From: Pseudofrankia coriaricola
Lineage (GTDB): Bacteria > Actinomycetota > Actinomycetes > Frankiales > Frankiaceae
Reading direction: 5' to 3'
NCBI RefSeq assembly: GCF_001854805.1
Contig: NZ_MBLO01000022.1
Location: 1 to 64,000, forward strand
DNA: 64,000 nucleotides
Part shown: piece after piece, positions 12,601-35,023 of the stretch
Position numbering within the stretch: position 1 is the stretch's first letter
How the letters are laid out: the number at the start of each line of letters is the position of its first letter
Program-made: the position numbers and the translations under genes
Notes under the pieces: model-generated
Seen by the model: the letters and a program-made list of their open reading frames with translations, nothing else
The model's database searches: none
What the model was told of the DNA's origin: nothing

Positions 12601-13380
12601 GTCGAATTTTCCTCACAGATCGGAGCGACCTATGGCTACAGGCCATCGTCGTCGGAGGACCCGTGGCTGGAACTCGCCTGGGCGGTGACTGTCCACAAGT
12701 CGCAGGGCTCTGAGTTTGAGGTCACCTTCTTGGTACTGCCGGCGCGCGTGGCTGTGAGTCGAGAGCTGCTCTACACTGCGCTGACTCGGCAGACGAAGAA
12801 GGTCGTGATCCTGCACGAGGGCACGGTGGACGACCTCTTCGCGCTGGCGTCACCGGCGCTGTCGGAGACCGCGCGCCGCATGACCGACCTTTTCCGCAGA
12901 CCGGCGCCGCGCGAGCTCACCATCGGCGACGACATGCGCCGATTCGATGGCAACCTAATCCACGTGGCCCCGGGCGACGTACTCGTGCGCAGCAAGAATG
13001 AGGTCATTATCGCCTCGATACTGGACGAGATTGTTCCGGATCGGTGGTCCTACGAGCAGCCCCTGACCATCGACGGAGTCACCAAGTACCCCGACTTCAC
13101 CATCGAAACGGCCTCGGGCGACGAGATCATCTGGGAGCACCTGGGAATGATGCGCAACCCCAGGTACGTCGCCGACTGGGCTAGGAAGAAAGCATGGTAC
13201 GTAGCCAACGGGTTCCGTCCCTATGACGAGCCCGACGCCGACGGTTCGCGCGGTGTCCTCGTTTGGACCGACGACCGCGGCGGAGTCGACCAGCCCGCAT
13301 GGGCCGAGATGGCCAAGCAGGTCATGGGAGTCGCGGCCCCAAGACGGGCCGCCAGGAGGGCAGCCGGAAGACGGTCATGA
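9649..13380 (+). CDS. RecD-like SF1 helicase with C-terminal nuclease-like domain
   Basis: 1243 residues from a TTG start with GGAG about 9 bases upstream. Residues 1-600 form a domain of unknown function that begins TTVQHISMRVPWRDRLWD and contains several Cys residues. The helicase follows: Walker A VGPAGTGKTS (about 628), Walker B LVVIDEASM (about 707), GDHRQLPPIG (about 738) and the RecD-type late motif VHKSQGSEF (about 1015), then a TALTRQTKK segment. The C-terminus (about 1110-1200) has the spacing of a PD-(D/E)xK nuclease, with PDFTIE and then IIWEHLGM, so one chain may unwind and cut DNA. It converges on the large methylase/helicase operon and could belong to the same defence island. 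Partners are not proven. Confidence 0.75.
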   Translation: MTTVQHISMRVPWRDRLWDDKVCHSPLDNSSCLLLKNIGGRRRDDWETDVAGRSFTELPRYDQLPCLSERGTFMSAHGYVLEKEHPYRFNRALSGHLEPTKVSVPPYAFEAVPFRWLSRETVEAELWEETGEYRSEREDAVNKLLRFTPGWVMDGRNQRALMDRFFEDVVAGESLVLIYLKHSPLQEESARRLLVGAATVTAVASPPMWNQSGRQPFDSAMWETLVSHSLRPDQKNGILLPYQELIPLLEAGEDVSGALAWAPEDAAVEFSYVTEHVSNDTAIAALNSLRAAADGMAALGVAVPPAAIAWADQQIERLWQLRGPAPGLAAVLGHLGVESAHRVVRRLVAEPDWIRDPWGLVERALDQRDPLGAELRLPASIKLTWRGFESDERTALKILSAMDVNREQVADLMNGRSTWQVTAADLVDNPYCAATCTYRSPHSIALATVDQACFPARHVPWVNLVDTLIGLDDPGDARRLEALMVEVLERLAEEGDTLASEPQMLAAASNIPLTRACPISHPLLVAHKLDPAQLADYERSTALVAAELEGDLPAYKLQHLYDAGLDISEHMRERRLAPRFDVPFDPRTSIDTAFGTADSSDAEEELARVEKAAGLGELFAARLSVLVGPAGTGKTSLLKTLVARPEIAQDGVLLLAPTGKARVQLQTKVGHKAQTLASFLVKKRGYDPDTGRYLPVEKSKRSRFGLVVIDEASMLTEEMLASTLSALQGVKRLILVGDHRQLPPIGAGRPFVDIVEWLKPDEFTGPVRSAPGYVELTVFRRQKSEDGERHDLALARWFGGEDLPGAADEIWQQLRLGKPSDTLTYRQWGDAGVVATLMAAIEEELGLTDTPEPESAFKLTYGGRISPDGKWVNWPLGLKGAGDRCEEWQILSPTRSRVFGTVELNRLLKQKYRAGDLEWAQRRYGHRPPKPLGPEQIVLGDKVMQTRNNSRAKAWPDGVGLDYVANGEIGVVVSRASTSPTYANVEFSSQIGATYGYRPSSSEDPWLELAWAVTVHKSQGSEFEVTFLVLPARVAVSRELLYTALTRQTKKVVILHEGTVDDLFALASPALSETARRMTDLFRRPAPRELTIGDDMRRFDGNLIHVAPGDVLVRSKNEVIIASILDEIVPDRWSYEQPLTIDGVTKYPDFTIETASGDEIIWEHLGMMRNPRYVADWARKKAWYVANGFRPYDEPDADGSRGVLVWTDDRGGVDQPAWAEMAKQVMGVAAPRRAARRAAGRRS

Positions 13381-13462: not shown

Positions 13463-15718
13463 TCAGAGCTGCAAAGGGAGGAACGGGCTTGGGGCGCCGT
13501 GGTAGGTGATGACCAGGGCATCGCGGGCGCGGGTGGCGGCTACGAAGAGCAGGGATCGGTCCTTCTTGCGTTCGCGGTCGTAGCGGTGGGGGTCGGTGTC
13601 CTGGATGCGGTCGAGGAAGCCGCGGGGGATGTAGCCCTGGCTGGCGGCGGCGATGATCAGTTGTCGGTACTCGAGGCCCTTGAAGCGGTGCATCGTGCCG
13701 ACGTGGACGGCGTTCGTGTCCGCGCCGGTGGTCGGACCGTCGGGTCCGATCTCGACGGCTTCGACGCCGTCGGCTGCCAGGGTGGCGAGTACGTCGGCCG
13801 CCAGGGCACGGGTGGGGACGCAGACGGCGATCCGGCCGCCGGACTGGGTGATGGTGCCGGGTTGGGCGTCGCCGAGCCATGCCCGGACCTGGGCGCTGAT
13901 TGTGTGCTGTTCCTCGGCCCAGGTGTCGTGGCGGAGACGCTCAGGCTCGTCGCCGCTGAGCAGGCTGCGGTAACCGGCGAGGTCCTCGGCGCCGTCGTCG
14001 AGGTTGTCGTAGCTTTCGCCATGCAGGAGCTGAAGGGCGAACTTCAGGATCTGGCGGGTGGTCCGATAGCTGAGTGTCAGCTTGTGGGAGCGGCCCCGGA
14101 TGTTCACGCCCAGGCTGCCGAGGCTGACGACGTTGTCGTAGATCCGCTGGTGGGTGTCGCCGACGAGGAACATGTCGTTGATGCCGGGCGCGACCATGGC
14201 GCGCAGCAGCTTCCAGTGCGCCGGGCTGAGATCCTGGGCCTCATCGACGATCACATGGCGGTAGCGGTGACGCGTTCCGGGACCGGACTGCTCCGCCATG
14301 CCGTCGGCGGCAGCCGCCGCGGCCCGGTCGGCGCGGGCGATCTCCAGCTCGGCCGCGCGCTCGGCGACCTGCTGCCAGGTCCACACGTTCTGGTCGGCCA
14401 GCCGCTTGGTGAACCGCTCGGTCAGCTGCCAGACCACGTCGCGGTCCTGGCGGGTGAGCTGCCGGCCGCGGCCTGGGCGCCGCGCCCGGAAGTAGTCGGC
14501 GCGGGAGCGCAGCACCTGGCCGAGGATGACCTGGGACCATTCGGCGGCGAGGAACTCGGCGCTGAAGCGGGTCTCGCCGAGTTCGAGGAGCATCGCCTTC
14601 CACTCGCGGATCTCGGCGTCCTGGCCGATGGTGCTCCGCCTGGAGTCATCGGCCTCGGACACGACCCGGGCGGCGAGACTGTCGATGTTGACGATGTCGA
14701 CGCGCGCGGTGTGCCCGGCGCCGGCCAGCTCCAGCAGCCGGGTGCGCAGATCGGCGGCGAGGTTCCGGTTGAACGTGGTGAGGAGAATCGACTTGCCGGT
14801 CGTTCCTTCCGGCAGGTCGATCGCCAGGTGCAGAGCCCGGTGCAGGGCGACGATCGTCTTGCCGGTTCCCGGTCCACCGCTGATCCGCGCCGGTCCGTTG
14901 TAGGTGTTGTCCGCGAGCTTGCGCTGGGTCGGATGCAGGAAGACCTGCCACCGGGCGAAAGACTCGGCGAGGATCGCGCGCAGCGCCTCGTCGTCGCTCG
15001 TCACCGGCGTCGACGGCCGGACAACGGCAGCCGCGTAGTCGGTGGTGTCGACGGGTTCCGGCGCGGTGACCGGTGTGGTGACGATCTCCATGACCTCGTC
15101 GGCGGTCTTGCCGTCGTAGAGCGCCATGAGGACGTCGGACGTCAGTTGCGGCACGCAGTCGACGAACTGGAGCAGCTGGTCCTCGGTGGTGAGCTTCCGG
15201 ATCGACGGGAGCAACGGCTCCGCGACGCCGAGTTGCAGCAGCGTGGCGTCGTCGACGTCGGGGAAAAGGCTTGCACCCTGTTCCGGGATGACCGGGTCGG
15301 CCGGGGTGGACCTGGGCGACGTCCCGGGTTGGGGTTCGGCTTTGCCGAGGACGCGGCCGACGATGCTGTTGCCGACGGCGGCCAGGTCGACGACCTCGAT
15401 GCCGCCGGTCACCCGGTTGATCTCGTAGGCGTAGCGGTCGAGGTCGTCGTAGACCTCCTTGCGGTCCTTGACCGAGACCAGGAGATAGTCGCCACCGCCG
15501 ACGTGCAGCAGCAGCGCCCGGTGGTCCTGGCCGACGCGGGCCGAATAAAGGCGCGAGCCGCCCTTGAGCTGCTTGAACCGAAGTGACGGGTGGTTCGGAT
15601 CGGCACGGAACTTCGACTGGAACTCGTACACCGCACCCTTCACGACCCGCGGCAGTTCGAGGATCTCCTTGTCGGCCCGGTCGAGGATCCGCAGGGTGAC
15701 TCGGACCTGGGTACTCAC
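13463..15718 (-). CDS. UvrD-like helicase with RelE/ParE-like N-terminal domain
   Basis: 751 residues from a GTG whose GTGA overlaps the stop of the upstream helicase gene. The frame is open further upstream, but the overlap and the homology support this start. Residues about 1-95 (AVYEFQSKFRADPNHPSLRFKQLKGG, then DHRALLLHVGG and KDRKEVYDDLDRYAYEIN) resemble a RelE/ParE-type fold, as in some stand-alone UvrD-like proteins. The SF1A motifs follow: Walker A ISGGPGTGKTIVALH (about 277), Walker B HVIVDEAQDLSPAHW (about 489), GDTHQRIY, then HVGTMHRFKGLEYRQ and LLFVAATRARDALVI near the end. It should be an ATP-dependent 3'-5' helicase. It is the last gene of a four-gene overlapping operon, so it is probably made with the methylase and the other helicases. 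Confidence 0.85.
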   Translation of the reverse strand: MSTQVRVTLRILDRADKEILELPRVVKGAVYEFQSKFRADPNHPSLRFKQLKGGSRLYSARVGQDHRALLLHVGGGDYLLVSVKDRKEVYDDLDRYAYEINRVTGGIEVVDLAAVGNSIVGRVLGKAEPQPGTSPRSTPADPVIPEQGASLFPDVDDATLLQLGVAEPLLPSIRKLTTEDQLLQFVDCVPQLTSDVLMALYDGKTADEVMEIVTTPVTAPEPVDTTDYAAAVVRPSTPVTSDDEALRAILAESFARWQVFLHPTQRKLADNTYNGPARISGGPGTGKTIVALHRALHLAIDLPEGTTGKSILLTTFNRNLAADLRTRLLELAGAGHTARVDIVNIDSLAARVVSEADDSRRSTIGQDAEIREWKAMLLELGETRFSAEFLAAEWSQVILGQVLRSRADYFRARRPGRGRQLTRQDRDVVWQLTERFTKRLADQNVWTWQQVAERAAELEIARADRAAAAAADGMAEQSGPGTRHRYRHVIVDEAQDLSPAHWKLLRAMVAPGINDMFLVGDTHQRIYDNVVSLGSLGVNIRGRSHKLTLSYRTTRQILKFALQLLHGESYDNLDDGAEDLAGYRSLLSGDEPERLRHDTWAEEQHTISAQVRAWLGDAQPGTITQSGGRIAVCVPTRALAADVLATLAADGVEAVEIGPDGPTTGADTNAVHVGTMHRFKGLEYRQLIIAAASQGYIPRGFLDRIQDTDPHRYDRERKKDRSLLFVAATRARDALVITYHGAPSPFLPLQL

Positions 15719-18700
15719 CGTGTGCTCTCCTGATCCTCGGCCAAGTCCGCTTCGCCGACGGTATTGACGATGCTGTTCCGTGGGTCGTTCGACGGGACGG
15801 GCCGACGGCCGACATCGCGATGGATCCGGGCGGCCAGATCCGTGGCGGTCCAGCCGGTCGCTGGTCGGACGTCCCAGCCGGCCTCCCGGTAGGCCTGGTC
15901 CCGGTTGACGGCCTCCTGGTCGGACTCGTCGACAGGGGCGAGAACGACACCGATCCGCGCGTCCGGCCAGGCCAGCTCCGCCTGCCAGGCACTCGCGCCC
16001 AGCTCGAATCCGACCTCGGGCACCGGAACGGCGCCGGCAGCATCCATGGCGTGTCCGGCCAGGGCCTGGACGAGTTCGACAAGCCCAGGTTCGTCGGGGT
16101 CGACCAGGGCAAGCACTTCCCGCCACGCGGGGTCGGTGAGCGTGCCTGGCCCGCTCGCGGAGCGTGCGGGCCGCGCGGGTGTCGTCGGGCGACCGAGCCA
16201 GGTGGAGGTCTCCTGGTCGAGTGCCCGCGCCGCCTGTGCGTCGTCGAAACCGGCACCCTCGGCGGCGGCGAGCAGGGTCGGATCGAAGTCGTCGAGGCCG
16301 GTGACGGTGAGCTGGACGGCGTCGCCGGCGCCGTCAGCGAGGAACTGAACCAGGTTCGTCCAGGCCAGCCACGACGCCCACCGCCGGCCGTGGGCCGACG
16401 CGATCCCGGCCCCGTCTAGCCCACCCTCGGCCTGGCCATCGGGTTCGTGGCCCCCCGCTCCATCGGCTTGTTCGTTCGCCGAGCCGACAGCCTCGTCCCG
16501 GTCATCGATGACGACCAGTGCGGAGAACACCCGGTTCGCCGCGCCGGCGCGGTCGTCGATCAGGGCGAGCACCGGGCAGCCGACGTCATCCTGCGCCCGC
16601 ACCACGGTGATCGCTCCGGTGGAACGTGGCGCCTGCCTCCCGCGCAGCCCGGCGACGACGGCCGCGGGAACACCGGGCGCATTGACCGGTGTCCGGGTGA
16701 CGCCCGTGGTTTGGAGCAGACCGGCGACCGTCGCCTCGGCTCGCTTCCGCCACCGGTCGCTGTCCGGGTCCGCGAGGAAGGCGAGGAGCTGGTCGACCGG
16801 GTTGACCCAGACGTACCGGTCCAGTTCGTCGGCCGGTCGCGAGGCCGTGAGCTGCCGGTAGATGCCGTGCGCCAGCTGCTGGGCCCGGCCCTGGTAGGGC
16901 GCGCGCGCCGGGGAGGGCGTGCCCGGCGTCCTGGTGCGCCACTCGTCGACGTCGTTCCAGGTGAGCTGGAAGACCCGCACCCCGTGGGCGCGCAGCCGGG
17001 AGCGTTTGTCGGCGTCGTCGGCGAGCCGGTTGTGCTCGGCGGAGGCGTGGTAGCGGAAGCCGTCAAGGTAGATGGCGGCCTCCATGGGAGGGCCGTCGAG
17101 CCGGGCGAAATGCACGTCGGGCCGGGTGCCGGCGATGGTGTGTTGCAGCCGCATCCGCCAGTGCGCGATCCCGCCGTCGGGCCCGGTGATCCGAAGTTCG
17201 GCGGCCCGGACGCCGCCCGCGATGATCGTGCTCGCGCTCAGCGTCCCAGGGGTGTCTGCGCGGGCTGCCCAGGCCCGTAGCCCGTCGAGGAACCGGGCTT
17301 CCAGCTCGCTTTCCACCAGGTGGATCATCGACGCTTGGTCGGCGGGGGCGCTGTCCGTGACCTCCCACTCGTCGAGCAGCTCGCGCAGGACGGCGACGGC
17401 CTCGGCCCGCTGGATCTGGGCGAACTCGTCGCGGCGGGCGTAGCGCAGCAGGCAGCGCGGGCAGCCCGACCGACCGGCGTCGGCGCAGGGGCAGTTCTCG
17501 ATCGCGTCGAGGGCCGCGGTCAGGACCCGGTGGAAGCTGTCCGGGTTAGCGAGCCGGTGCAGGTAGCCAGTGCCGCCCGGCTGGCTGTCATAGAGGACGA
17601 GGAACTGGCGGGTCGTTCCGGTCGCGGCGTCGGGCATGACCGCGGACGTGAGCCGCAGGTGGTCGGGGCTGCCCCGGTACGCGCGGGCGATCCCGAGCCG
17701 CAGCGCCGCCGCGAAGGACGCCCGCCGGGTCGTGATCGACTGGGTGAGGGCAGGCACCAGGATGCGAATAGCCTCGGTGCGCAGCTCGTCCGCGAGCAGC
17801 AGCGGCTGGTGGCGTGCCGACGTCGGAGTACGGCGGTGTCGGCAGTAGAGCCGGTGGTGCTCATGGCCGCGTAGCCCGTCGCCGGACTCCGACCGTTCGC
17901 CGTTCATGGTCCCCGGGCCTTCGGCGTTCTGGCCGAAGCCAGCGCCGCTGGCCGTGGTCGCGGGCGGGCCGTCCACGGCGGTACCGCCGCAGTCGACGCA
18001 CACCTGGAACGGGTTGAGCGACACCGTCTCGCCGGCGAAGAGGTCAGTCGGGTTCCGGTCGGGCCGGGTCGCGCCGAGGTTGAACGTACGGACGATGGCG
18101 GGACGGGCATAGTCGACGCCGAACGTCGCGCCAGTGTGCCGCCAGGAGCGGAAGATCCGCGCCGGATCGACGTCGACGGTGGTCAGCGTCGTGTAGAAAC
18201 GGCCCTCGCGGTCGTCAACCTCGTCGCGGATTCGGACGTCGTCGCGCCGGTCGATCGCGGTGACCCGGGTCGGGCGGAGCACGGTGAACTTCGAGCCGGA
18301 GTCGCCGATGCCGGTCTGCCGGCAGCGGTCGCACGGCCCGGTGCTGTCGACGAGGTGGCCATAGGAGTCCTGCGACCCGCCCGACGAGCCGACGGCCAGG
18401 TCTGGCTGGGGGGTGCGCACGAAGCCGCAGGCGGGGCAGATGCGCCACGTCTCCCAGGCGGGCTTCGTCCGCGGGCCGATGTCGAGGCCGGTGACGCGGT
18501 GGGCGTAGCCGCGGACGTAGTACGTGTTACCAGGAGCGATCTCGGTCAGTGCCTGGCGGACAGGGCGGTCGTACTCGCGGACCTCGCTGACGTACCGGCG
18601 CTCGCCGTCGGCGCTCTGCTCCTCCCAGGTGAGGGTGGCCTCCAGCGTCGTCGCGCCGTCGAACAGTGCGTAGTTCGGCAGCAGACCCAGGTCGACGAGG

Positions 18701-21700
18701 GTGCCGTGCGCCGATCGCCCGGTGATCTCGCCGGCGAGGCGGGCGAGCGCGCCCCGCTGCGCGGACAGGGCCCGGTAGTCGCGGCGCTGGTCGTCGTCGG
18801 ACTGCAGCAGACCGGCGCGGGCCTGGTCGATGACGTCGAGCCGGCCGCGCAGGCTCGCGATCCGCTGCTCCCACGCCGCCACGGCCGCATCGATCGTGTC
18901 CCGCAGGCCGCCGACGGCGAACTCGCGCAGCTCGGCGGCGGCCGTCGCGCTTAGCCGCGCGCCGCCCCCACCGGCTGTGTTCTCAGCCCAGGTGGTTTCG
19001 TCGCCGGTGGCGGCACTGTTGTCGGCGCTGTCGGCAGGCGCGTTCTCGGCGGGACTGTCGTCGGTGACGCCGAACAGGCCGAGGAAGTTCTCGACCTCAG
19101 CCGCGCCGATTTTCAGCGCGGCGAGGGTGAAGTCCGCGAGCCAGCCGTCGAGCCCGAACAGCGCCCCCGCCCGGCGCGGCAGCGAGCGAGCCCCGGGCAG
19201 CCGGTCGCGGGCGGCGAGGTCGACCAGGTGGGCGAAGTACTGGCGGCGCAGGATCTCGATGGCCGACAGGTACGTGCCTGGTGGCGCGATCTCCCCGGCG
19301 ATCATGTCGCGGGGCTCCGTCAGGTAGTACTGCTCCCGCTCACCCCGGCCCAGCAGCGTCAGCACGAACGCGTTGCCGCTTGCCCGGCCCGCGCGGCCGG
19401 CGCGTTGGACGTAGTTCGCCGGCCCGGCGGGCAGCGACGCGAGCAGCACGGCCTCCAGCTCGCCGATGTCGATGCCCAGTTCGAGCGTCGGCGTGCAGGA
19501 GAGCACGTTCGGGTCGGTGTAGTGGGTGCCGTCGCGGAACTTCCGCTCCACGGTCTCGCGCTGCTCCCGGGTGAGCAGGCCGGTGTGCTCGTCGGTGACG
19601 ACCCGGAACGCGCCGCTCTCCCGGTAGAGCCGCCGGTAGTAGTCATCGGCGGTCCGCGGCAGCACGGCGTGCCGCAGCGTCCCGGAGCAGCGGTAGCGGT
19701 GACACGGCTGGCCGACCCATGTATGAAGCCGCACTGGTGGAACGGTCTGCGTCCACGCGCAGGCATCGCAGCGGACCCCCGCCGCCCGCGCCTGCTCGTC
19801 GTCGAGGCTGACGACGCTGAGGTGGCCCGGCTGCAGGCCGTAGACCGTGATCCCCGATGTCGGCGTGGCGCCCCGGCGGGGCTGGCGGGAGTTGCCGAGC
19901 GGACGGACGATGACCCGCTGGGCGACCGTGCCCTCCTCAGCGAGGAGGGGGAGCAGTGCGCGCAGATAGTCCGACGCGTGGTCGCGGCTCAGCCCGAGCG
20001 TACGGGCCGTCCAGTCCTGGTACCAGTTGCCGGTGCTGGCCAGCACGTCAAATTGGGTGCGTGGCCGGGGCGCCGTCATGAGGAACGCCGGCGCCCCCAG
20101 GCCGCGGGGGAACGCGGGCATGCCGTTCGGCCGGCCACCCCAGATCCGGAATCGCCGGCCCCCCTCGGCCAGGTACTTGTCCAACCAGTGGTGATAGACG
20201 GCGCCGCGGATCCGCAGCCGCTCCAGCAGGCCCCGCAGATAAGCGTCGTAACGCGCGTCCGTCAGCTCATCGGGCAACAGCGGCTGGACCTGGGAGCGCA
20301 GCAGGGTGTCACGGGCCAGGCCGCGGATCCGCGCCGCATCGCGCAGGTCGACCTCGGCCGCGACCGAGCGGGTCAGTTCCAGCGTGCGGCCATTGCGGGA
20401 CCGTAGGCCGAACTCGAGAACGGTGGCGAAACCGAGCCGGTCGGCCAGCAGCCGCCAGGTGGCGCGCCGGCCCCGTTCCCGGCCCGACAGCAGCGCGTCA
20501 ACGCCTTCGACGTCGTGCAGTTCGGGCGGGACCAGGGCTGCCAGCGTCTCCGGGTCGGCGGCATCGGCGATCAGGTCCGCGATCAGGTCGTTGAGCGCGA
20601 CCGGCTGCCCGTCCGTCAGCTGGGCGGCGAGCAACGCCCGCAGCGAGAACGTGAACGCCCGGGCCGCGACGAACCCGGCCCGGTGGGCCGCGTCCTGCAC
20701 CGAGTCGTTGAACAGCAGTGTGTGCCGGGACTTCCGCGTCGGCAGCTCACCGCCGGTGAACAGCTGGCTGATCGAGACGGATGCCAGGGACGCGAGCCCG
20801 GCGCCCAGGTAGCGGATGCCCTGCTCCAGGCCACAGGCCGGGCAGCGGTCCGCCTCCGCGCCGGCCTCATCGGCGAACGCGCACAGCACCGCAACCCCCG
20901 CCTGCGCGGCCGAGGGGTCGTAGACATGTAGCGCGGTGCCCGAGGCGTCGAGGATCATCACCGGGTTCTCGGCCGGCGCGGCGCGCTCCTGCCCGGTCGC
21001 CTGGATCAGCGCCCGGACCCGCTTCTTCTCCCGGCCCACCCCAGCCCGGTAGATCTTGGTCGGGTCGGCGACGAGCTCGTACGGGTTGCGCTCCGGCGAC
21101 AGTGCCGCCCAGCCGGACCGGCCACAGTGCCGGCAGTACACCGCCGGCAGCAGCGGCTGCCCACTGTCCGCGACCACCGGTACGGCCGACGCCGCCGCGT
21201 CGCCGGATGCGGCCGGGACCGTCGGGGCGTCGCCGTCGTCCATCGCAGCCGTCGTCGCGAGATCCAACGCCGGCGTCGGCGCTGGACGCTGCTCGCCGTC
21301 CCACGCGAACGCAGGCCCCGCAGCGACCGCGCGCAGCAGCCGGGAGACGGCCCGCACCCACAGGTGGGTCTCCACCGCGACGAGCGGCCGGTCTGGGTTA
21401 TCCGGGTCGCGGGCCGCCGACAGCAGCGCGACGAACCGGGCCAGCGCCGCCGCCGCGACCTCCGGCTGGCTGGTCAGGGCCACACCCCAGGCACGCAGGT
21501 CCTCGCGGGGGAAACCTTCCAACGCCTCGCCGGCGGTCCGCGGCAGGTCGCCGAGCAGGCGCAGCACGGCGCGGGTCAGCTTGTGCCGGCGCAGCAGCGC
21601 GCCCAGCAGCGTCGGCGTCAGCGGCCCCTCGGCCGCCGCCGGGCCGAGCACGGCGACGGCCAGCGGGCGCATCGCCTGCAACTGGCGGGCGCGAACGACC

Positions 21701-22737: not shown

Positions 22738-25700
22738 CCGACGGCCTCCGTGGCTACAGGTTCCTCGGACTCCCGCCAGCCAGCGTCCCGGGCGGCCTGC
22801 AGCCGAGCCGAGAAGACAGCGTGCGCGGCCCGCATCTCGACCTCCCGGTCGGCCTTGTAGAAGGGGGCGACGTAGCCGGCGGGCGGGAGCCTGCGTTTCG
22901 GGTCCTCCAAGTGCGCCTGCAGCTCAATCCAGTCCGCTTTTTTCTGACCGTGTCCAAAGTTGTTGTAATATGATCCGATTTTGCGTCCGTTCGAGTCGAA
23001 CCAGGTTTCAGCCTCGTAGTCGACAAGCTGTGGGAAGCGTGAGCGATAGAGAGCTACAAGCGCATCGGCGGTTATCCCAAGCCACGTGGCCACGATGGCG
23101 TCGATCTCGACAAGGGCGGCTCGCCGGGAGTATTCTGTTCTCAATGGCGCTTCCTCGGCCCATGCCGAAGTAACGCTGCCGAGCGCCGAGATTCGTGGCC
23201 ACGGGACGGCCCATTCCTCTGACGATCTCCATAGATCGTCGTATAGCTCTGCCCAGAGCGATGAGTACGCATCAGTCAGACAGTTGAGGCGGAGGGTCCG
23301 CAGTAGGAGCGATGAGGCTAGCGGGTGACCGGATGATCCGGCTGGCAGTGAGCGCGCGTCGGATTGCCTAAGGTCGCCACGTCCGGAAATACGGATAACG
23401 TAGTCGAGTGGGAGACTGCTCCAAAAGCCTACGGCCAGCGCGGTGTCACGGGCGGAGGCGTACCCAAGCGAATGGACCGCGTCAATGTGCGCGGGGCCGG
23501 GCGGAAGTAGCGCCGCGTAGAGCGATCGCTCGGTATTCGCGGCGATGCGGCGGCGCCAGAAAACTCTGTAGTAGTCCGTATACGGATGCCCGGCCCACGT
23601 ATCTTGAGCCGACAGGAACTTTTCTCGGGGGCAGCCACGAATGTAGTCCGTTGTCGGTATGGAGTCCGCCGAGAGCGCCGTTATCGGAACCGGATAGTCA
23701 CCAGCGCCGGTCTTTGGCGGCTGCTTCGCGATTGGCGTAGAGACGTTGATCTGGGGCCCGCGAATGATTACCTCGCCCCAGCTGCGGGGGGCCTGGAAAT
23801 TGGCTCGTATGATTCCATCATTCTTCGCGCCGGACTCGTCGTAGCCTCGACTTATCCACGGATTTCCTGTTCCAACTCGGCGCGGCCAGCGTGCTAGCGC
23901 CTCGATTGCTCTCTGCTCATCCGTATTTAGCGGGAAGAGGAGGCGACTGCCGAGAGGGTCTGCATCCGGCTCTTCCCCCAGTCGGCTCCAGTTCGCCAAC
24001 ACTTCTCTATCGACGAGTACTACGCGCTTCTTGTGTGGGCGAACATCCCAATGCCCGTGATGCTTCATTCCGGGCGCCTCTCCTGCGCCTTCATGACTTA
24101 GCGATCCCGTCAGTACCGAAGGATCGTATAGCCAGCTAAGATGGGTGAATGAAACGTCCCTGGGCTGGCCGTAGATGTGAACGCCGAATTGCTTATTCCA
24201 GTCGATATCGCTGAAGATGAGTCGGCGGTTATGGAAGTGAGAATGCAGCCGGAGGCGCCGGTAGGTCGCCGCGCGCAGTCGACGTTCCTGTGTTCCGGTC
24301 AAATGTGTGTCCGGGTGGATCATTCCACTGGTTCCGTTGATTCCAGAGTGCCGGAAAACCTGGATCATGAAGGCGCGGTAAAGGTTCGGCTGCGAGCCCA
24401 CCAGGAGGTCGTAGGTGATCGGGGAGCTGAGCAAGGCGACCAGACCCGTGTTGGAAGCCAACTCGTCCAGCAGGTACGCCCGCGTGGAGGACACCGAAAG
24501 CCGTGTCGACTTTCGTGACTTCCAAATCTCGACGGGCGGCTGGTCGTCCAGCATGAACCACGGGTCATGCTCGGCGAGGACCGCGCCTTCCTCCCAGCGT
24601 GGACGGACCCAGGGAGGATTTCCTACCTGGAGGTCGAAGCCACCGTGCTTGAAGACCTGGGCGAACTCGACTTCCCAGTGGAAGAAGCCCTGGCGTTTGG
24701 CGATCTGGTCGACGGTTTCCAGCCAGGGGAAGAGTTCCGGGAGGCGGGTCCAGTCCTCCTGGCCCATCCACGCGGCCAGGCCGTCCTCGTAGTCCTCGAG
24801 GGCGTCGAGGGACGTGAACTGGCTGACCAGGGAATCCTGGGCGACGTCGCCCCGGCCGACCAGGGCGGTGGCGAAGCGGATCCAGTCGTCGAGGCTCGCC
24901 AACGGGACGGCGCCGCGGAACCGTTCCGGGCGCTTCGTCGCCTTCCCGCCGGACGACGCGGACCGGCCGTTCGCGGCGGCGGGCGGGGCGAGCGTCAGGC
25001 CGGCCTCCTCGCCGAAGATCGACAGCTCTTCCCACGTCACGACCCTGGTCGCGTCGTCGTCGGCCGCGGGGCGGCGCTCAGCCGCCGGCTCGGGGGCGGC
25101 GCTGGTGACGGTGAGCGGGGCGCGGCCGTAGTCGGGAGCGGTGCCGTCCAGCAGCGCGGCCCCGTCGACGGGCCAGAACCAGAGGGCGCACCAGGCGTCC
25201 ATCAGCTTCTTCAGCCGCCAGTACGGCGTGCCGGGCGCCTCCAGGTCGTCCTTGATCTTCTGGCGGGAGACCAGCTCGCGGACCTCGGGGAGGTCGTCGG
25301 CGCCCCAGACGTTGATCTGGCGGCGGATCTCGCGTTCGGAGATCTCCAGGCGCTGCTGGACGAGGCTCCACAGGTACTCGACGCGCCGGGCGAGCGCGGC
25401 CAGCTGGTCCGCCTGGCTGGGTGCGCTCTTCTTGCCCTTCGTTGTTGGCGCCTTTGTGATGGCGCGGCGCCATGCGGCGAGTTTCTTCGCGTCTACGGGC
25501 GCGAGTTCCTTGGCTTCCTTCTCGGCGGCGACCGCGCCCCAGCCGGTGGCGGGCAGCAGGAAGTGGTGGATGGCCCCGGCGGGCAGCTCGCCGTCGCGGA
25601 ACGGGTGGTCGACGGGCGCGGTGTTTAGCCACGAGCGGTCGGCCAGCGTGGCGGGCAGGTAGTAGCGGCGGCCGGCGCCGACGAGGGAGTTGCCGCGGCG

Positions 25701-28097
25701 TAGGTGCAGGCCGAACCACGGTGCCTGCAGGCCGGCGTGCATAACGTTCAGCCAGAGGGAGACGTCGGCGAGCTCGATGGCGGTGGCGTTCAGGTCGACG
25801 CCGTAGCTGTTGTGCAGGGCGATGTAGGCCTTGGCCTTCTGCAGCTCGACGGTGTAGCTCTCCGGGTCGAGTGTTTCCTTCTTCTCCTCCTGGCGCCGGC
25901 GCAGGTACTCGGCGGCGACCTGGTTGATGGCCTCGTTGAGGAACGCGCCGGAGCCGAGGGCCGGCTCGCAGATCGTCCAGTCGAGCATGTCGCGGGCCTT
26001 GAAATCCGGGCCGGCTTCCTCGATCCGGTATTTCAGTGCGAGCTGGACGGTGACCTCGGTGAGCGACTGCGGGGTGTAGTAGGAGGCCGACGTCTGCCGG
26101 TCGCGCCCGGAGAGCCGGTAGACGAACGAGCCGGCCGGGTACCGCCGGCGTTCGTCAGTGCGGTGACCGTCGTCGTCGACTGTGTGGACGAACACCTCGG
26201 CCGGGTAGTCGTGGGCCTTGGAGGCGGGCACCGTCCAGGAGCCGTCCTTCGGGTCGCCGCCCTTCGCGACCTCGTAGAGGTCCTCGCCGGCGATGAAGCC
26301 GGAGTAGGACATCAGCCCCTCGTAGACCGCGCCCAGCTGGTTGATCCCGAGTTGGGCGTAGGAGATGAACCCTGCCCGCTTGCGCCCACCCCCCTTGATC
26401 TTCCGGCCACCCTTGGTGATCATGAGGCGGCGCAGGACCCGGTAGAGGACGGCGTTGCGCAGCCGGGTGTCGATCGGCGGCCGCGGCCCGCCAGCAGTGT
26501 CCTCGTCCTCGTCGTCGGGCCAGGGCAGCGACTGGCCGATCAGCGTGATGGCGTCGGGGGCGAACAGGTCGGAGCGCAGCGGCTCGAACCGGATGCCCTC
26601 CCCCTCGCTGACTTTCGGCGCCGCCCGGCCGGCGCGCCGCCGCGCCTCGGCGTCGGCCTTTGCCTCCTCGGCCGCCGCCCTGTCGGACGTGGGTCCTCCT
26701 TCGGTGGCTGCGGCATCGGTGTCGGTATCGGCGTGCGTGTGACCGTCTGGGGGCGTCGCGCCGTGTGCGCGGTAGCCGTCGTTGACGACGCGGAACAGCA
26801 GGTCCAGCGAGTCGAACAGGTGAGTGCCATGACGCGAGGCTGGGCCGGGGGGCAGCCGGCGGGAGACCAGGTCGCCGAGTCGGGCCAGGCTGTACCCGTC
26901 GACGTACTCGGGATGGTCGACCGGGAGGACGTGTAGCTCGGGGCGGGCCTCGGCGTAGAGGAGGACAAGGATCCGGTAGAGGTAGCGCAGCGCTTCCCTT
27001 GTCAGCCGGGTGCCGAGGGACTCCAGGTCGTCGATCTGCTCGGGGCGGATGCCGGCCTCGGCGAGCCGGGCGAGGACCTCGTTCGCGATCAGCTCGACGG
27101 ACTCTCGCAGCCCATTGCGCAGTTCGGCGGTCACGCCGACGGCCTGCTTCTGCGAGCCCGCGATCAGGTCGGCGAGCGGCTCGGCACCGCCGGCCTCCGG
27201 CGGGCACAGCGCGTCGGCGCCGAACAGCGCCGCGATCACGTCCAGTTCGCCGCCGGGCTTCGTGTCGTTGCGACCGAACGCCACGTCGAGGTTCGCGGCG
27301 AGGAAGCGCGCCTCGCCCCAGGTCCGCCGGTCGGCGAGGATGACGACCGCGCCGGCGAGCAGCAGCACGAAGCGGGGCGGCTCGTCGGTGGCGAACAGGT
27401 GCGAGACGAGGCGCATCCCGTGGGTGACCCGCTCACGTGGGCCCAGGTCGACGGGGTCCAGCAGGCGACCGGCCCCGGCCGGATCGACCGCGGCGTCGAT
27501 CTCGGTGGCCCAGCCGCACTCGACCGCCCACACCCCGTCGACCGCGGCGGCGAGCGGCACGGCGACTTCGACGCCGGCGAGTACGACGGTGCGGGTGTGC
27601 CGGTCAGGCTGGAAGCAGAGCGCGCCGAGGATGTGGTCGTGCAGCCGGTGCAACTGCTGGGCACGTTCGGCGTTGTCGCTGTTGCCGTTGAGCCCGACCA
27701 GGCCGCTCTTGCGGTCGTAGTAGGTCTGCCGCAGGCCGCGCAGCCCGGCTCGCGGCGTGACCGCGACCTCGACCGCGACGGTCGTCTCCTCGGCGGCCTG
27801 GCCGCCGTCGCCGGCAAGGACGAACCGATGGTCGATAGCGGCGGCCTCCGCGACGACGACCTTGCCTTCACTACTGGGGGTCGAGCCGGCGGCCGCGTCA
27901 CCGTCGGTGGTCGTGGTGCCATAGCCGGGGTCGGCCTCGGGTTCGACGAGCGTGGCCGTGACGGCCGGAACCACGGCGGCCTTCTCCCGCTCGGCCCAGC
28001 GCGCGGCGACCGACTTGCGGATCTCGCCGGGGAGGACCTCGTCGAGGAAGTACGGCGAGAGGTACTCGCCGCGGTTCGTCAGCGCGTCGAAGCTCAT
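22734..28097 (-). CDS. giant Eco57I/DrmMI-type adenine DNA methyltransferase
   Basis: 1787 residues from the ATG at 28097, whose ATGA overlaps the upstream SNF2 stop. Upstream in-frame codons belong to the overlap and are not used. Motif I is EPALGSGAFLNEAINQ (about 712) and motif IV is GNPPWVRPRW (about 1159), the NPPW of N6-adenine methylases, so it should transfer a methyl group from SAM to adenine. The N-terminal 650 residues and the C-terminal recognition region are long, as in PglX and DrmMI proteins that protect host DNA in BREX and DISARM. About 22.95-24.56 kb, the probable target-recognition domain, is visibly poorer in GC than the rest of the gene. Stand-alone type IIG activity is possible, but I see no clear nuclease motif. 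Confidence 0.85.
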   Translation of the reverse strand: MSFDALTNRGEYLSPYFLDEVLPGEIRKSVAARWAEREKAAVVPAVTATLVEPEADPGYGTTTTDGDAAAGSTPSSEGKVVVAEAAAIDHRFVLAGDGGQAAEETTVAVEVAVTPRAGLRGLRQTYYDRKSGLVGLNGNSDNAERAQQLHRLHDHILGALCFQPDRHTRTVVLAGVEVAVPLAAAVDGVWAVECGWATEIDAAVDPAGAGRLLDPVDLGPRERVTHGMRLVSHLFATDEPPRFVLLLAGAVVILADRRTWGEARFLAANLDVAFGRNDTKPGGELDVIAALFGADALCPPEAGGAEPLADLIAGSQKQAVGVTAELRNGLRESVELIANEVLARLAEAGIRPEQIDDLESLGTRLTREALRYLYRILVLLYAEARPELHVLPVDHPEYVDGYSLARLGDLVSRRLPPGPASRHGTHLFDSLDLLFRVVNDGYRAHGATPPDGHTHADTDTDAAATEGGPTSDRAAAEEAKADAEARRRAGRAAPKVSEGEGIRFEPLRSDLFAPDAITLIGQSLPWPDDEDEDTAGGPRPPIDTRLRNAVLYRVLRRLMITKGGRKIKGGGRKRAGFISYAQLGINQLGAVYEGLMSYSGFIAGEDLYEVAKGGDPKDGSWTVPASKAHDYPAEVFVHTVDDDGHRTDERRRYPAGSFVYRLSGRDRQTSASYYTPQSLTEVTVQLALKYRIEEAGPDFKARDMLDWTICEPALGSGAFLNEAINQVAAEYLRRRQEEKKETLDPESYTVELQKAKAYIALHNSYGVDLNATAIELADVSLWLNVMHAGLQAPWFGLHLRRGNSLVGAGRRYYLPATLADRSWLNTAPVDHPFRDGELPAGAIHHFLLPATGWGAVAAEKEAKELAPVDAKKLAAWRRAITKAPTTKGKKSAPSQADQLAALARRVEYLWSLVQQRLEISEREIRRQINVWGADDLPEVRELVSRQKIKDDLEAPGTPYWRLKKLMDAWCALWFWPVDGAALLDGTAPDYGRAPLTVTSAAPEPAAERRPAADDDATRVVTWEELSIFGEEAGLTLAPPAAANGRSASSGGKATKRPERFRGAVPLASLDDWIRFATALVGRGDVAQDSLVSQFTSLDALEDYEDGLAAWMGQEDWTRLPELFPWLETVDQIAKRQGFFHWEVEFAQVFKHGGFDLQVGNPPWVRPRWEEGAVLAEHDPWFMLDDQPPVEIWKSRKSTRLSVSSTRAYLLDELASNTGLVALLSSPITYDLLVGSQPNLYRAFMIQVFRHSGINGTSGMIHPDTHLTGTQERRLRAATYRRLRLHSHFHNRRLIFSDIDWNKQFGVHIYGQPRDVSFTHLSWLYDPSVLTGSLSHEGAGEAPGMKHHGHWDVRPHKKRVVLVDREVLANWSRLGEEPDADPLGSRLLFPLNTDEQRAIEALARWPRRVGTGNPWISRGYDESGAKNDGIIRANFQAPRSWGEVIIRGPQINVSTPIAKQPPKTGAGDYPVPITALSADSIPTTDYIRGCPREKFLSAQDTWAGHPYTDYYRVFWRRRIAANTERSLYAALLPPGPAHIDAVHSLGYASARDTALAVGFWSSLPLDYVIRISGRGDLRQSDARSLPAGSSGHPLASSLLLRTLRLNCLTDAYSSLWAELYDDLWRSSEEWAVPWPRISALGSVTSAWAEEAPLRTEYSRRAALVEIDAIVATWLGITADALVALYRSRFPQLVDYEAETWFDSNGRKIGSYYNNFGHGQKKADWIELQAHLEDPKRRLPPAGYVAPFYKADREVEMRAAHAVFSARLQAARDAGWRESEEPVATEAVG

Positions 28098-31000
28098 CGG
28101 GACGCTCCCGTCGGGATCTGGGCGGGGACGGCCGGGGCAAGGACAGCGAGGACCCGCAGCAGCGGCTCGCCGGTGGTGCGCAGGCGTTCGACCAGGTCGC
28201 GCTGCCGCTTCTCGGTGTCGCGCACCCGCTGTTCGCGTTTCGTCAGCTGGCGGGCGGCCGGCCCGTCGTCCCGCCGCTCGGCTCCCTGCTGTTCGAGGTC
28301 GAGGGGCAGGCTGGTCTGCACCCACCGGTCCAGGCGGGACAGGTACCCGTTGAGCGGCTCGGCGACCTGCGCGTTCCAGTCGGCCCGCCGGGCCTCGAGG
28401 TGTGCCCTCGCGGCGGCGACCACGTCCGGGACCAGGGCCTCGAGCGGGGCGAGGTCGACGGCGGCCTGGGTGTTGGTCATGTCCGGGCCGACCTTGGCCG
28501 CGGCCAGTGCCGTCTCCATCGGGCGGATGCGGTCCGGGCCGGGCCGGCCACGGACCGCCATCCACTCGACCACCGTCGGCTGGCCGAATTCGTTGCAGTA
28601 CACGCCCTGGACGAGGAACTCCGGCTCGTCGACAGGCACGGTCAGCACCGGGGCCTGCTGCCGGTCGAGCCGGACCAGCACCTTGTCGACCAGCCAGTCG
28701 ACGACCGGGTGGATATCGGTGATGAAGCCCTTATCGGGCCAGAGCGTCTCGCGACCGCGGCGGGACGCGGCCAGTGCCTCGCCCGCCTCGGTCTTGTCGA
28801 ACGTCAGGCGTAGCTTCAGGTTCCCGTGCTGATCGCGCAGCCGGGCCAGATAGCTCCGGGGCAGGTCGGAGAGCCGCGCCTCCAGGTCCTCCGGCGCGTC
28901 GAACGACCTGAAGGCGCCGTCGCGCCTCAGGCCGACGGCCTGTTCGGCCTGCTCGTCGTAGACCTCGTTGAATGCCTCGTCGACGAACGCCGCGAGCGTG
29001 GTGAAGAGCTGAGGAGGCTTGACCGTCTCCGGCTCCGGGTCGCTGGCGTGCGCCTCGGCGTCCGGGTTCAGATGGGCACCGAGAAGGTCATAGGTCGCCT
29101 CCTGGGCGGCCTCGTCCACCTCGTCGGGCTGATCCTCGGACTGGTCGTCGTCAGCCTGGAGGCCGAGCGGGTCGTTGCCGCCGGTCGCCGGGCCGGTCGC
29201 GGAGCCGGTCGGCACGGCGCGGCGCGCGGAGCCGGCGGCGAGGGACTCCTCGACCGTGCGCCCGGCGAGGAGATCCTGCATCAGGCGGCGCTCCTCACGC
29301 TCCGCCAGGTGCAGGCCGGTGACCTCCTCGGCGGTCCCGAGGGCGACGTAGGCCTCCTCCTCGGCGGCGAGCAGCTTCGCCGCGACGGCCCGGTCGTCCA
29401 GGGCACGCGGCGTCGCCGACCGCAGCAGCAGGGCGGCGAACTCGGGGGCGTGGCGCTGGCCGTAGCGGTCGATCCGGCCGTTGCGCTGCTCGATGCGGAT
29501 GAGGCTCCACGGCACGTCGAAATGGATCAGCCGGTGGCAGGCCCGGTGCAGGTTCACGCCCTCGGAGGCGACGTCACCGGTGAAAAGCAGCCGCACCGGG
29601 CTGCCGTCGAGGGAGAACTCCTCGACGACGCGCTGCTGGTCGGCGTCCGTCAGCTTGCCGTGCAGGAGCCGGGCGGCGCCGCCGTTCTCCCGCCGGTTGA
29701 ACTCCAGGTCGAACGCCGCGTCGCTGAGCCGGCGGTTCGTCGGCAGCTGCGCCAGCGGCAGGCCGAGCCGCGCGGGCACGACCCTGGCGAGCCAGCGCAG
29801 GGTCGCCAGCCGTTCCGAGAAGATGACGACGCGGGCATCGGAGCGTGGGCCGACCCCGGCCTTGCGCAACTGTTCGAGCAGCTCGGCGAGCTTCGTCGAG
29901 TCGTCATCGGATATCGCGGCCGCCAGCCGATGCAGCTCCTGAAGCCTGGCCTGCTCGTCGGCCCGGTTCTCGGCCTGCCTGTGCGTGGGGGACTTCAGTC
30001 GGCTGTCGATCGTCTCCAGCAGTGCGTGGTGCGACGAGAGAAACGCCTTGGCGAGCGTGTACGCGAAAAGCTGCCGCCCGCCGCCGCCTTTCGCCTTCGG
30101 CGCCGCCGTGGCCGTGGCCGTGGGCTCGGGCGCCTGGACCCATTGCGCCGTCAGCTCCGCGAAGACCCGCTCCTCCTCCGCGCTGGCCGGACGTTCCAGG
30201 CGCAGGGAGTCGCCGCGGTCGGCCCACCGGTCGAGGACCTTGTCCCGGACCTCCGACGAGCGCTTCGTCCGCCGGATGTAGAGGTGCTCGATGTCCTCGG
30301 CCTGGTAGGTGTTGAGGTTCGCGATCGCCGCCGGGTCGAGCATCCGGAGCAGCTCGCCGAACGACCGCTTGTTGCCGTTGTGCGGGGTCGCGCTCGCGAG
30401 GATCAGGGCCTCGGTCTGCGCGGCGAGCGTCCGCGCGAGCCGGTTACGCAGGCTGTTCGCGCCGATCAGGTTGTGCGACTCGTCGATGACGACCGCGTCC
30501 CACCGGGTCTCCTCCAGGTGGTGGCCGTACATGCCGACATTCTTCAACGTGTCGATCGAGACGATGACCCGCTTGAAGTAGGTGAACGGGTTGCGGCCCG
30601 CCGGGATCTCCCGCTGGATTCGTTCGATGCCGACCGAGTCGAGCCGCACCAGCGGGATCGAGAACCGCGTCCACAGCTCGTGCTGGAACTGCTCGAGAAC
30701 ATGTTGCGGAGTGACCACCAGCAGCCGCTCGCCCCGGCCACGGCGGATCAGCTCGCCGAGCAGCAGCCCGATCTCCAGCGTCTTCCCGAGGCCGACGACA
30801 TCGGCGATCAGGATCCGCGGCTGCAAGCCCGCCAGGGCCAGCTGGGCGGGCCGCCACTGGTATTCGAGCTTGTCCAGCAGGAACCCTTCGGTGAGCGTGA
30901 GGCGCCGCTCCGCGCGCGGCAGCGGGGTACGCCGCAGCACCGCCTCCAGGTACAGCCGGCTGCGGCGGAACTTCGTCGAGCCGTCCCGGACGAGCTGGGT

Positions 31001-31216
31001 GTCCTCCGGCCGCAGCGTCACGATCGTGTCCAGGCCCGGGCCGTCGAAGAAGGACGCCTCCAGCCCACGGACGAACTCGGAGGCGCCGACGACGCGCACC
31101 AGGTAGCCATCGTGCTGGGTTCGTGTCACCCCACGGACGAGCCATTCCTCGTCCCGGATGAGTACCCGCGCCCCCGGGGCGGGCGGCGCCAACGACGACG
31201 GAGGTGCTGTGACCAC
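28094..31216 (-). CDS. SNF2-family helicase, DrmD-like
   Basis: 1040 residues from a GTG preceded by GAGAGGTAG. The N-terminal domain (PGARVLIRDEEWLVRGVTRT, up to about 110) resembles that of DISARM DrmD. The SNF2 motor has Walker A ADVVGLGKTLEIGLLL (about 135), VVIDESHNL (DESH box, about 238) and LASATPHNG. The second lobe has LLHGKLTDADQQ, FTGDVASEGVNL, HFDVPWSLIRIEQRNGRIDR and YGQ (about 520-610). The C-terminal 350 residues are helical with no motif I recognise. It should translocate on double-stranded DNA using ATP. It is the first gene of the four-gene overlapping set; the SNF2 plus adenine methylase pair is the hallmark of class 1 DISARM. Confidence 0.85.
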   Translation of the reverse strand: MVTAPPSSLAPPAPGARVLIRDEEWLVRGVTRTQHDGYLVRVVGASEFVRGLEASFFDGPGLDTIVTLRPEDTQLVRDGSTKFRRSRLYLEAVLRRTPLPRAERRLTLTEGFLLDKLEYQWRPAQLALAGLQPRILIADVVGLGKTLEIGLLLGELIRRGRGERLLVVTPQHVLEQFQHELWTRFSIPLVRLDSVGIERIQREIPAGRNPFTYFKRVIVSIDTLKNVGMYGHHLEETRWDAVVIDESHNLIGANSLRNRLARTLAAQTEALILASATPHNGNKRSFGELLRMLDPAAIANLNTYQAEDIEHLYIRRTKRSSEVRDKVLDRWADRGDSLRLERPASAEEERVFAELTAQWVQAPEPTATATAAPKAKGGGGRQLFAYTLAKAFLSSHHALLETIDSRLKSPTHRQAENRADEQARLQELHRLAAAISDDDSTKLAELLEQLRKAGVGPRSDARVVIFSERLATLRWLARVVPARLGLPLAQLPTNRRLSDAAFDLEFNRRENGGAARLLHGKLTDADQQRVVEEFSLDGSPVRLLFTGDVASEGVNLHRACHRLIHFDVPWSLIRIEQRNGRIDRYGQRHAPEFAALLLRSATPRALDDRAVAAKLLAAEEEAYVALGTAEEVTGLHLAEREERRLMQDLLAGRTVEESLAAGSARRAVPTGSATGPATGGNDPLGLQADDDQSEDQPDEVDEAAQEATYDLLGAHLNPDAEAHASDPEPETVKPPQLFTTLAAFVDEAFNEVYDEQAEQAVGLRRDGAFRSFDAPEDLEARLSDLPRSYLARLRDQHGNLKLRLTFDKTEAGEALAASRRGRETLWPDKGFITDIHPVVDWLVDKVLVRLDRQQAPVLTVPVDEPEFLVQGVYCNEFGQPTVVEWMAVRGRPGPDRIRPMETALAAAKVGPDMTNTQAAVDLAPLEALVPDVVAAARAHLEARRADWNAQVAEPLNGYLSRLDRWVQTSLPLDLEQQGAERRDDGPAARQLTKREQRVRDTEKRQRDLVERLRTTGEPLLRVLAVLAPAVPAQIPTGASR

Positions 31217-31326
31217 GAACTACCTCTCTCGGGAAAGCTGCGGTTCTGCCGCGGCGGCGAGCCGTCCGGACCGAGCCGTCGAACTGTTCACGCGAGGCGT
31301 CACCTCGCTGCGCGCGGGAGCGCCCG

Positions 31327-32634
31327 TCACAAGGGCGCGTCCCGCGCATAGGCGACGCGCAGCTCGTCCACAAGCCAGCCGATCTGCAAGGGGCGCGACG
31401 TCCGGGCCGGCGAAGGCGCCGTGGTCCTCGACCGCTCCGCCAGCGCGGGCAGCGGGCCTGGCGGGAGGAGAGGCGGGCCGATGACCGTGGTCGTCTCCGG
31501 GTCGAACAGCGCCGCCTCCGCCTCCGCCTCCGCCTCCGCCGCCTCCGCCTCCACCGCTGGCCGCGGTGGCGAGCCGTCCCCGGCGGTGTCCGGCCCGCGG
31601 CCCTGGGCCGGGATGCCAAGCGATAGCGAGGCGTCGGAACCGGTCGGTTCGGGCGCCGCATCGATGGCGACGCCGCGTACCGGGCCGGGCACGTCGTCGT
31701 CCTCGCCCGGTCCGGCGGTCACGCCGTCCGCGGCCGAGACATCCGGCGTCGCTGGTATCGGCGCGACGTACGTCGCGGCGACGAGTTGTCGACGCATCTC
31801 GCTGATCGATCCGGCTGCCTCGACGACGGCGAGCAGGCTGCGCTGCGCGTCCCGGACGGTGGGGCGTCGCGCCGGGTCGTAGGCGACCATGCCGGCGAGC
31901 AGACCGGTCAGCTCTCCTGGCACACCCGAGAGATCCGGCTCGACGACAGGGTCGGTGATCGCCCTGATAAGAGCGGGAATGCCACGGGGCTGGTAGAGGG
32001 TGTGCGCGGTCGCCGCGTAGACCAGCGTCGCGCCGAGCGCGTATACATCGGCCGCCGCCGCGATGGCACTGCCACCTGTTGCCTGCTCTGGCGGCAGGTA
32101 GGCCGGGGTACCGACGATGGCCCCGGACGCCGTGTTCTGCCCCGCCTGGCCCTCAAGGACCGCGAGCCCGAAGTCGATCACCTTCGGACCGTCCGGGCCC
32201 AGCATGACATTCTGCGGTTTGAGGTCACGGTGCAGCAGCCCAACGCGGTGAAGCTTGTCGAGCGCATCGGTCAACGTCATCCCAAGGACCGCGACCAGCG
32301 CACCCGCCAGTGGGCCGTCCTGCTCGACGTGCTCGCGCAGAGTCCGACCAGGCACGTACTCGAAGGCCAGCCACGGCGGATCGTCGTTCATCCCGTCGGC
32401 CTCGAACCGCGCATTGCGCGCCCCGTAGACCAGCCGCAGCGTCTGGATCTCCTCGGCGAACCGCCGCCGGATATCGTCCCCTCCGAGCAACTCAGGCTTG
32501 ATCACCTTGAGTGCCACGTCTTCCCCAGTCGCCGACCGGGCGAGGTATACCCGCCCCATCCCGCCAGCGCCCAGCCGTGCCACGAGCCGGTACCCGCCGA
32601 TCATGCTCGGGTCCGCGGGCAGCAGCGACTCCAC
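31327..32634 (-). CDS. Hanks-type Ser/Thr protein kinase, soluble
   Basis: 435 residues, GTG start with AAGGGGGGC upstream. The kinase domain (about 10-270) is complete: glycine loop LGAGGMGRVY, VALKVIK, the catalytic loop HRDLKPQN (about 133), DFG (KVIDFGLAV, about 154) and GTPAYLPPEQA. The C-terminal 160 residues are Ala/Glu/Pro-rich and disordered, with an EA repeat (31513-31553). I see no membrane segment and no PASTA domain, unlike PknB. The gene lies 110 bp upstream of the SNF2 gene on the same strand and may share its transcript. That recalls BREX type 2, where the kinase PglW accompanies a methylase, but no PglZ or PglY is present here. It could also be an independent regulator. Confidence 0.88.
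   Translation of the reverse strand: MESLLPADPSMIGGYRLVARLGAGGMGRVYLARSATGEDVALKVIKPELLGGDDIRRRFAEEIQTLRLVYGARNARFEADGMNDDPPWLAFEYVPGRTLREHVEQDGPLAGALVAVLGMTLTDALDKLHRVGLLHRDLKPQNVMLGPDGPKVIDFGLAVLEGQAGQNTASGAIVGTPAYLPPEQATGGSAIAAAADVYALGATLVYAATAHTLYQPRGIPALIRAITDPVVEPDLSGVPGELTGLLAGMVAYDPARRPTVRDAQRSLLAVVEAAGSISEMRRQLVAATYVAPIPATPDVSAADGVTAGPGEDDDVPGPVRGVAIDAAPEPTGSDASLSLGIPAQGRGPDTAGDGSPPRPAVEAEAAEAEAEAEAALFDPETTTVIGPPLLPPGPLPALAERSRTTAPSPARTSRPLQIGWLVDELRVAYARDAPL
31513..31553. repeat. hexamer tandem repeat inside the kinase gene
   Basis: Repeats of GCCTCC on the plus strand, with one interruption, encode the EAEAEAEA run in the kinase tail. Unit changes would add or remove whole Glu-Ala pairs without a frameshift. 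Confidence 0.7.
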
Positions 32635-35009: not shown

Positions 35010-35023
35010 AGGCGGGCAAGGGC

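Follow-up and report, generated by a model that had tools for sequence, protein, structure and literature searches.

The window analysed here, a 64,000-nucleotide stretch that is part of contig C22 in the 11.2-Mb genome of Pseudofrankia coriaricola, carries on its minus strand four joined genes for three helicases and a DNA methylase, with a protein kinase gene immediately upstream. Two questions arise from this arrangement: to which defence system do the four genes belong, and does the kinase belong to it as well? The original prediction described the operon as DISARM-like; the genes that it named, their coordinates and their strand agree exactly with the open reading frame calls and Pfam matches below, in which the gene names anticipate the assignment that we reach.

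31327-32634, minus strand: kinase gene (armK, a provisional name), 435 aa; Pfam Pkinase 1.5e-33
28094-31216, minus strand: armA, SNF2/RapA (BrxHII/DrmD-like) helicase, 1040 aa; Pfam SNF2-rel_dom 3.9e-14
22734-28097, minus strand: armB, PglX/type IIG-like adenine methylase, 1787 aa; Pfam Eco57I methylase 2.7e-12
15715-22737, minus strand: armC, YprA-family helicase, 2340 aa; DEAD 5.8e-20, Helicase_C 3.4e-12, MZB 5.5e-13
15718-17430, minus strand: C-terminal tail of ArmC (residues 1770-2340), a predicted PD-(D/E)xK nuclease and a second nuclease-like domain
13463-15718, minus strand: armD, UvrD/GajB-like helicase, 751 aa; Pfam UvrD-helicase 5.4e-23

The four arm genes are joined by 4-base overlaps, as had been noted, at 28094-28097 (armA/armB, read directly from the sequence) and, from the reading frame coordinates, at 22734-22737 (armB/armC) and 15715-15718 (armC/armD); the gap between the kinase gene and armA is indeed 110 bp. 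Among the loci compared, the closest operon is that of Frankia nepalensis CN7 (L052), with 79-92% identity over the operon. We looked for the four-gene order in other genomes, as the original prediction had proposed, and found it in E. coli, Alphaproteobacteria, Nostoc and dozens of actinobacteria. The operon is therefore not a chance assembly, and the possibility that its genes rarely co-occur is set aside by their strict order across these genomes.

The genes and their order correspond to those of ARMADA, a class of defence systems between DISARM and Druantia that was first described in 2025 (Bell et al. 2025 preprint, PMC12458937). ARMADA Type II consists, in order, of BrxHII-like, PglX-like, YprA-like and GajB-like proteins; its ArmC has an MZB/DUF1998 domain, a C-terminal Vsr-type nuclease, a BrxA-like insert, zinc modules and an EEP domain, and its ArmD an N-terminal RelE-like domain (PMC12458937). 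E. coli members of this type have been tested against phages, the ATCC 8739 locus in the strain that naturally carries it. In E. coli, defence requires all four Arm proteins and is direct rather than suicidal (PMC12458937). The window has the same order, based on Pfam matches and comparison to the E. coli locus. When the ATCC 8739 locus was used as the reference for pairwise comparison, ArmA matched its counterpart with 471 bits (34% identity), ArmB in three matches (295, 291 and 124 bits), ArmC with 635 bits and ArmD with 336 bits. The original prediction had allowed that the giant helicase could be an ordinary DruE family member, but it resembles ArmC much more than DruE, since its match to the Druantia III DruE adjoining the E. 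coli ARMADA locus is only 122 bits. Similarly, in a tree of ArmC rooted on two DruE proteins, with Type I references left out, the window ArmC branches with ARMADA II and outside both DruE proteins. Thus, judged by gene content, order, domain make-up and sequence family, all of which it has in common with ARMADA Type II, the four-gene operon is a member of that type, neither DISARM nor a new system. Where it departs from that type is in the dedicated kinase, with its conserved tail, that is encoded upstream in the actinobacterial clade of the window. The proposal of a distinct system holds with respect to DISARM, but the system is already described as ARMADA Type II; likewise, the UvrD-like protein is a core member as proposed, but of a type that had already been reported (PMC12458937).

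The relation to DISARM is real but limited. Three operon proteins have homologs in class 1 DISARM, namely the SNF2 helicase (there DrmD), the methylase (there DrmMI) and the YprA-family helicase, and DrmD and DrmMI profiles do match ArmA and ArmB. However, ArmA scores 261.6 bits against a curated DrmD cut-off of 610 bits, and ArmC scores 287 bits with DruE profiles versus 60 with DrmA. Moreover, DISARM has separate DrmA and DrmB proteins and a PLD-type nuclease, DrmC, whereas the window has a single chain with a nuclease-like tail, plus a UvrD-RelE protein; neither a separate DrmA or DrmB nor a PLD nuclease was found among the operon proteins with Pfam. Gene content and the DrmD cut-off together rule out membership of class 1, and the DISARM-like framing with which the locus was first presented, that of a class 1 variant, is left with almost no probability.

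Membership of the two other related systems is rejected on similar grounds. ArmC and DruE are sister YprA helicases, and DruE profiles match ArmC with up to 287 bits, but DruE has other partners (DruH or DruM), profile searches found no Dru partner among the operon proteins, and in the tree ArmC falls among the ARMADA II proteins, with both DruE proteins on the outside. Pgl (BREX Type 2) is a functional parallel, in that it too combines a PglX-like methylase with a Hanks kinase, PglW, which Pgl needs for defence. PglW is, however, a multidomain protein of 1400-1600 residues, while the window kinase has 435 aa and neither a NERD nuclease nor a sensor domain. The kinase scores only 51.7 of 990 bits on a PglW profile, and no match to PglY or PglZ was obtained among the operon proteins.

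ArmB contains methylase motif I, EPALGSGAF (residues 711-719), and motif IV, NPPW (1160-1163), both invariant across 12 homologs. In ArmC, the MZB (formerly DUF1998) zinc domain lies at residues 1676-1763 (Pfam) and is followed by the long tail, in which the nuclease-like segments span about residues 1800-1935 and 2200-2316. Six residues of this tail (E1813, D1874, G1893, H1897, D1908 and R1912) are invariant in an alignment of 31 homologs that includes the E. coli protein, and the Pfam restriction-enzyme family MTES_1575 matches 5 of the 31 tails, with a best value of 5.8e-5; therefore, the two nuclease segments of the original prediction are probably real. The AlphaFold model of the tail is confident (pLDDT 85), but comparison of the whole 571-residue tail with known structures by Foldseek gave no match under E 0.001, and a search by VIA gave weak matches (Z 5.9 or less). 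Since no fold can be named from matches this weak, the assignment of the tail as a predicted PD-(D/E)xK nuclease rests on sequence. The sole profile matches to the tail among solved structures were engineered repeat proteins, which we judged spurious. The suggestion that one chain combines the roles of DrmA and DrmB with a nuclease-like tail is supported. ArmD is a helicase, as had been recognised, but it also has an N-terminal RelE-like domain that had been missed: residues 1-262 are modelled by AlphaFold with a pLDDT of 84.5, and Foldseek identifies a RelE/YoeB fold at about residues 1-120 (TM-score by target length 0.71-0.78).

The kinase had been mentioned only in passing, correctly as a Hanks kinase 110 bp upstream on the same strand, yet it is the part of the locus for which we found no description. 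We read its distribution from the gene order in two collections of loci. The first came from searching named genomes with an alignment of ArmB, which gave 80 loci and is biased towards relatives of the window; the second came from a class-wide sample of 394 actinomycete genomes, including the window's own family. In a tree of ArmA with 120 rows (3 of which end at contig edges), the kinase is present in all 96 rows of one clade (support 99) and absent from the 21 rows outside it, such that a single change explains its presence; the ArmC tree agrees, with the kinase in 17 of 17 members of the clade (support 100). Loci without the kinase include those of E. coli, Haematobacter, Gemmobacter, Nostoc and Tsukamurella. 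In the class-wide sample, ArmA is encoded in 41 of the 394 genomes, about one in ten. Of the 41 loci that could be resolved, the majority, 24, carry the kinase and 17 lack it (for one of these only 0.9 kb of upstream DNA was read); 2 others are cut by contig ends. Where the position was measured, the kinase gene is upstream of armA on the same strand in every case (101 of 101 loci), usually with a gap of about 100-170 bp, and a 4-bp overlap between the two genes is possibly real in only four. We conclude that the kinase was gained once, by one actinobacterial clade of ARMADA II, and was kept in every locus of that clade that we examined. The word 'kinase' occurs nowhere in the main text of the ARMADA paper (PMC12458937). 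As far as the available papers and databases go, a kinase-bearing clade with a single origin and the tail motif described below are undescribed, although the ARMADA supplement could mention the kinase.

The kinase is of the Hanks Ser/Thr type, with its domain at about residues 15-264, followed by a low-complexity linker and a tail that reads ELRVAYA. The catalytic Lys, Asp and Asn and the Asp of DFG are invariant across 37 diverse kinases of the clade. The linker is divergent across the clade, but the C-terminal motif [LIVM]RxxYA occurs within the last 45 residues of 90 of 97 clade kinases, or of 96 with a relaxed pattern. By comparison, the strict motif is missing from the tail of all 37 other kinases taken from these loci and from the genome of the window, and one of the 37 has the relaxed form. 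One kinase of the same genome (G000:C236:44508-45416, L235) is an orphan that branches among the ARMADA kinases but lacks the tail motif, and no Arm genes were found near it in the 20 kb read; this single case is consistent with the tail being needed for partnership with ARMADA. The kinase has also diverged together with its neighbours: its distances correlate with those of the Arm proteins (r 0.79-0.95, compared to 0.91-0.97 between Arm proteins), and none of 2000 permutations gave a correlation as high.

These observations bear on what the kinase does. The kinase could be a separate, stand-alone defence gene of the PD-T4-6 or Stk2 kind that merely lies beside ARMADA in defence islands, an idea that accords with its best PADLOC matches, which are the generic PD-T4-6 and mad6 models, with the function of E. 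coli ARMADA without any kinase and with the gap that usually separates the kinase gene from armA. The association is never missing, however, in a clade that spans many families and goes back to a single gain, and for this reason we consider a kinase unlinked to ARMADA unlikely. Such a gene would also not be expected to hold the same position and strand throughout, to co-diverge strongly with the Arm proteins or to carry a tail that other kinases lack, while the other defence neighbours vary freely. A different proposal, somewhat easier to entertain yet still doubtful, is that the kinase restrains ArmB or the helicase-nuclease in uninfected cells, so that losing it would poison the cell rather than abolish defence. 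Both the toxicity of PglX without its antitoxin PglZ in the Pgl system (PMC4365076) and the RelE-type toxin fold on ArmD fit this proposal, but E. coli ARMADA stays harmless without a kinase.

We regard it as probable that the locus encodes an ARMADA Type II restriction system of five genes, in which the kinase is the regulator. That the kinase was gained once and kept in every locus checked points to control of ARMADA II by phosphorylation in this lineage. By extension from the E. coli work, ArmB would mark or recognise host DNA by adenine methylation, allowing self to be told from non-self; the three motors ArmA, ArmC and ArmD would engage non-self phage DNA; and the nuclease tail of ArmC would cut it, so that the cell survives, with the RelE domain of ArmD perhaps contributing RNA cleavage. 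The kinase itself must be dispensable for the core activity, because ARMADA of E. coli gives defence with no kinase present (PMC12458937). It would dock on an Arm protein through the [LIVM]RxxYA tail, and by autophosphorylation, or by phosphorylation of one of the Arm subunits, it would switch the complex from idle to active or back. A model for such control may be found in Pgl of Streptomyces, where the kinase activity of PglW is essential and the methylase PglX is the proposed recipient of its signal (PMC4365076). No sensor domain was identified in the window kinase, and the interval that usually separates the kinase gene from armA in the clade, about 100-170 bp, leaves room for a separate transcript.

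We looked for docking sites in the form of inserts specific to the Arm proteins of the kinase clade, but found none that is well conserved. The N-terminus of ArmB in this clade does carry the sequence TPRxxLRxLRxxYF, and because this resembles the kinase tail, the tail may compete with this segment of ArmB; the similarity covers few residues, and some ArmB proteins from kinase-less loci also have an aromatic pair at this place. The full form of this idea, that the kinase is an obligate regulatory subunit whose C-terminal helix mimics the ArmB segment, with phosphorylation and tail-ArmB competition timing the attack on DNA, is speculative and on balance improbable. Should the kinase prove functional, phosphorylation would control a restriction system that is abundant in antibiotic-producing soil bacteria, the second such case after Pgl, and the short tail would offer a direct handle on how control works. 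The minimal system of E. coli would then not be the whole story of ARMADA.

The ARMADA operon sits in a defence island, since a Wadjet type III system (JetD 903-1961, JetC 1958-6457 and JetA 7251-8762, with an unmatched reading frame at 6475-7254 in the JetB position) and, after it, the candidate defence gene PDC-S68 (9649-13380; 1406.7 bits) adjoin it. On the other side, a gene with a GmrSD_N domain (33159-35009, plus strand) is divergent from the kinase gene and is overlapped by a reading frame (34802-36193, plus strand) with CBS and weak Swt1-like HEPN matches.

Further arrangements were noted at other loci. The same genome has a second kinase-linked copy of ARMADA II on G000:C51 (L021-L022 and L143), followed by what looks like a two-gene Druantia III, in which one gene encodes a protein of 1269 aa and the other a DruE-like helicase of 1687 aa; thus the pairing of ARMADA with Druantia, known from E. 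coli, is found in Frankia too. In two ARMADA II loci on alphaproteobacterial plasmids, a gene for a WYL-domain regulator occupies the upstream slot of the kinase (L236, 4296-5156; L237, 983-1870). Just upstream of a kinase-less ARMADA II on a Tsukamurella plasmid (L123, 1-6413) lie genes for a UvrD-type helicase and another helicase-related protein and a separate DUF1998 gene, in a split arrangement like that of DISARM. In many loci of Streptomyces, Micromonospora and Actinomadura, the operon is interrupted, with 1-9 kb or more of DNA separating armB from armC (for example L046, L049, L054, L063, L078 and L118). Overall, 26 loci have inserts in this interval, 41 have the two genes adjacent and in 34 the interval was not reached; the inserts examined include an HTH_31-DUF5753 regulator, a HATPase gene, GmrSD genes, OLD-like ATPases and a caspase-helicase fusion.
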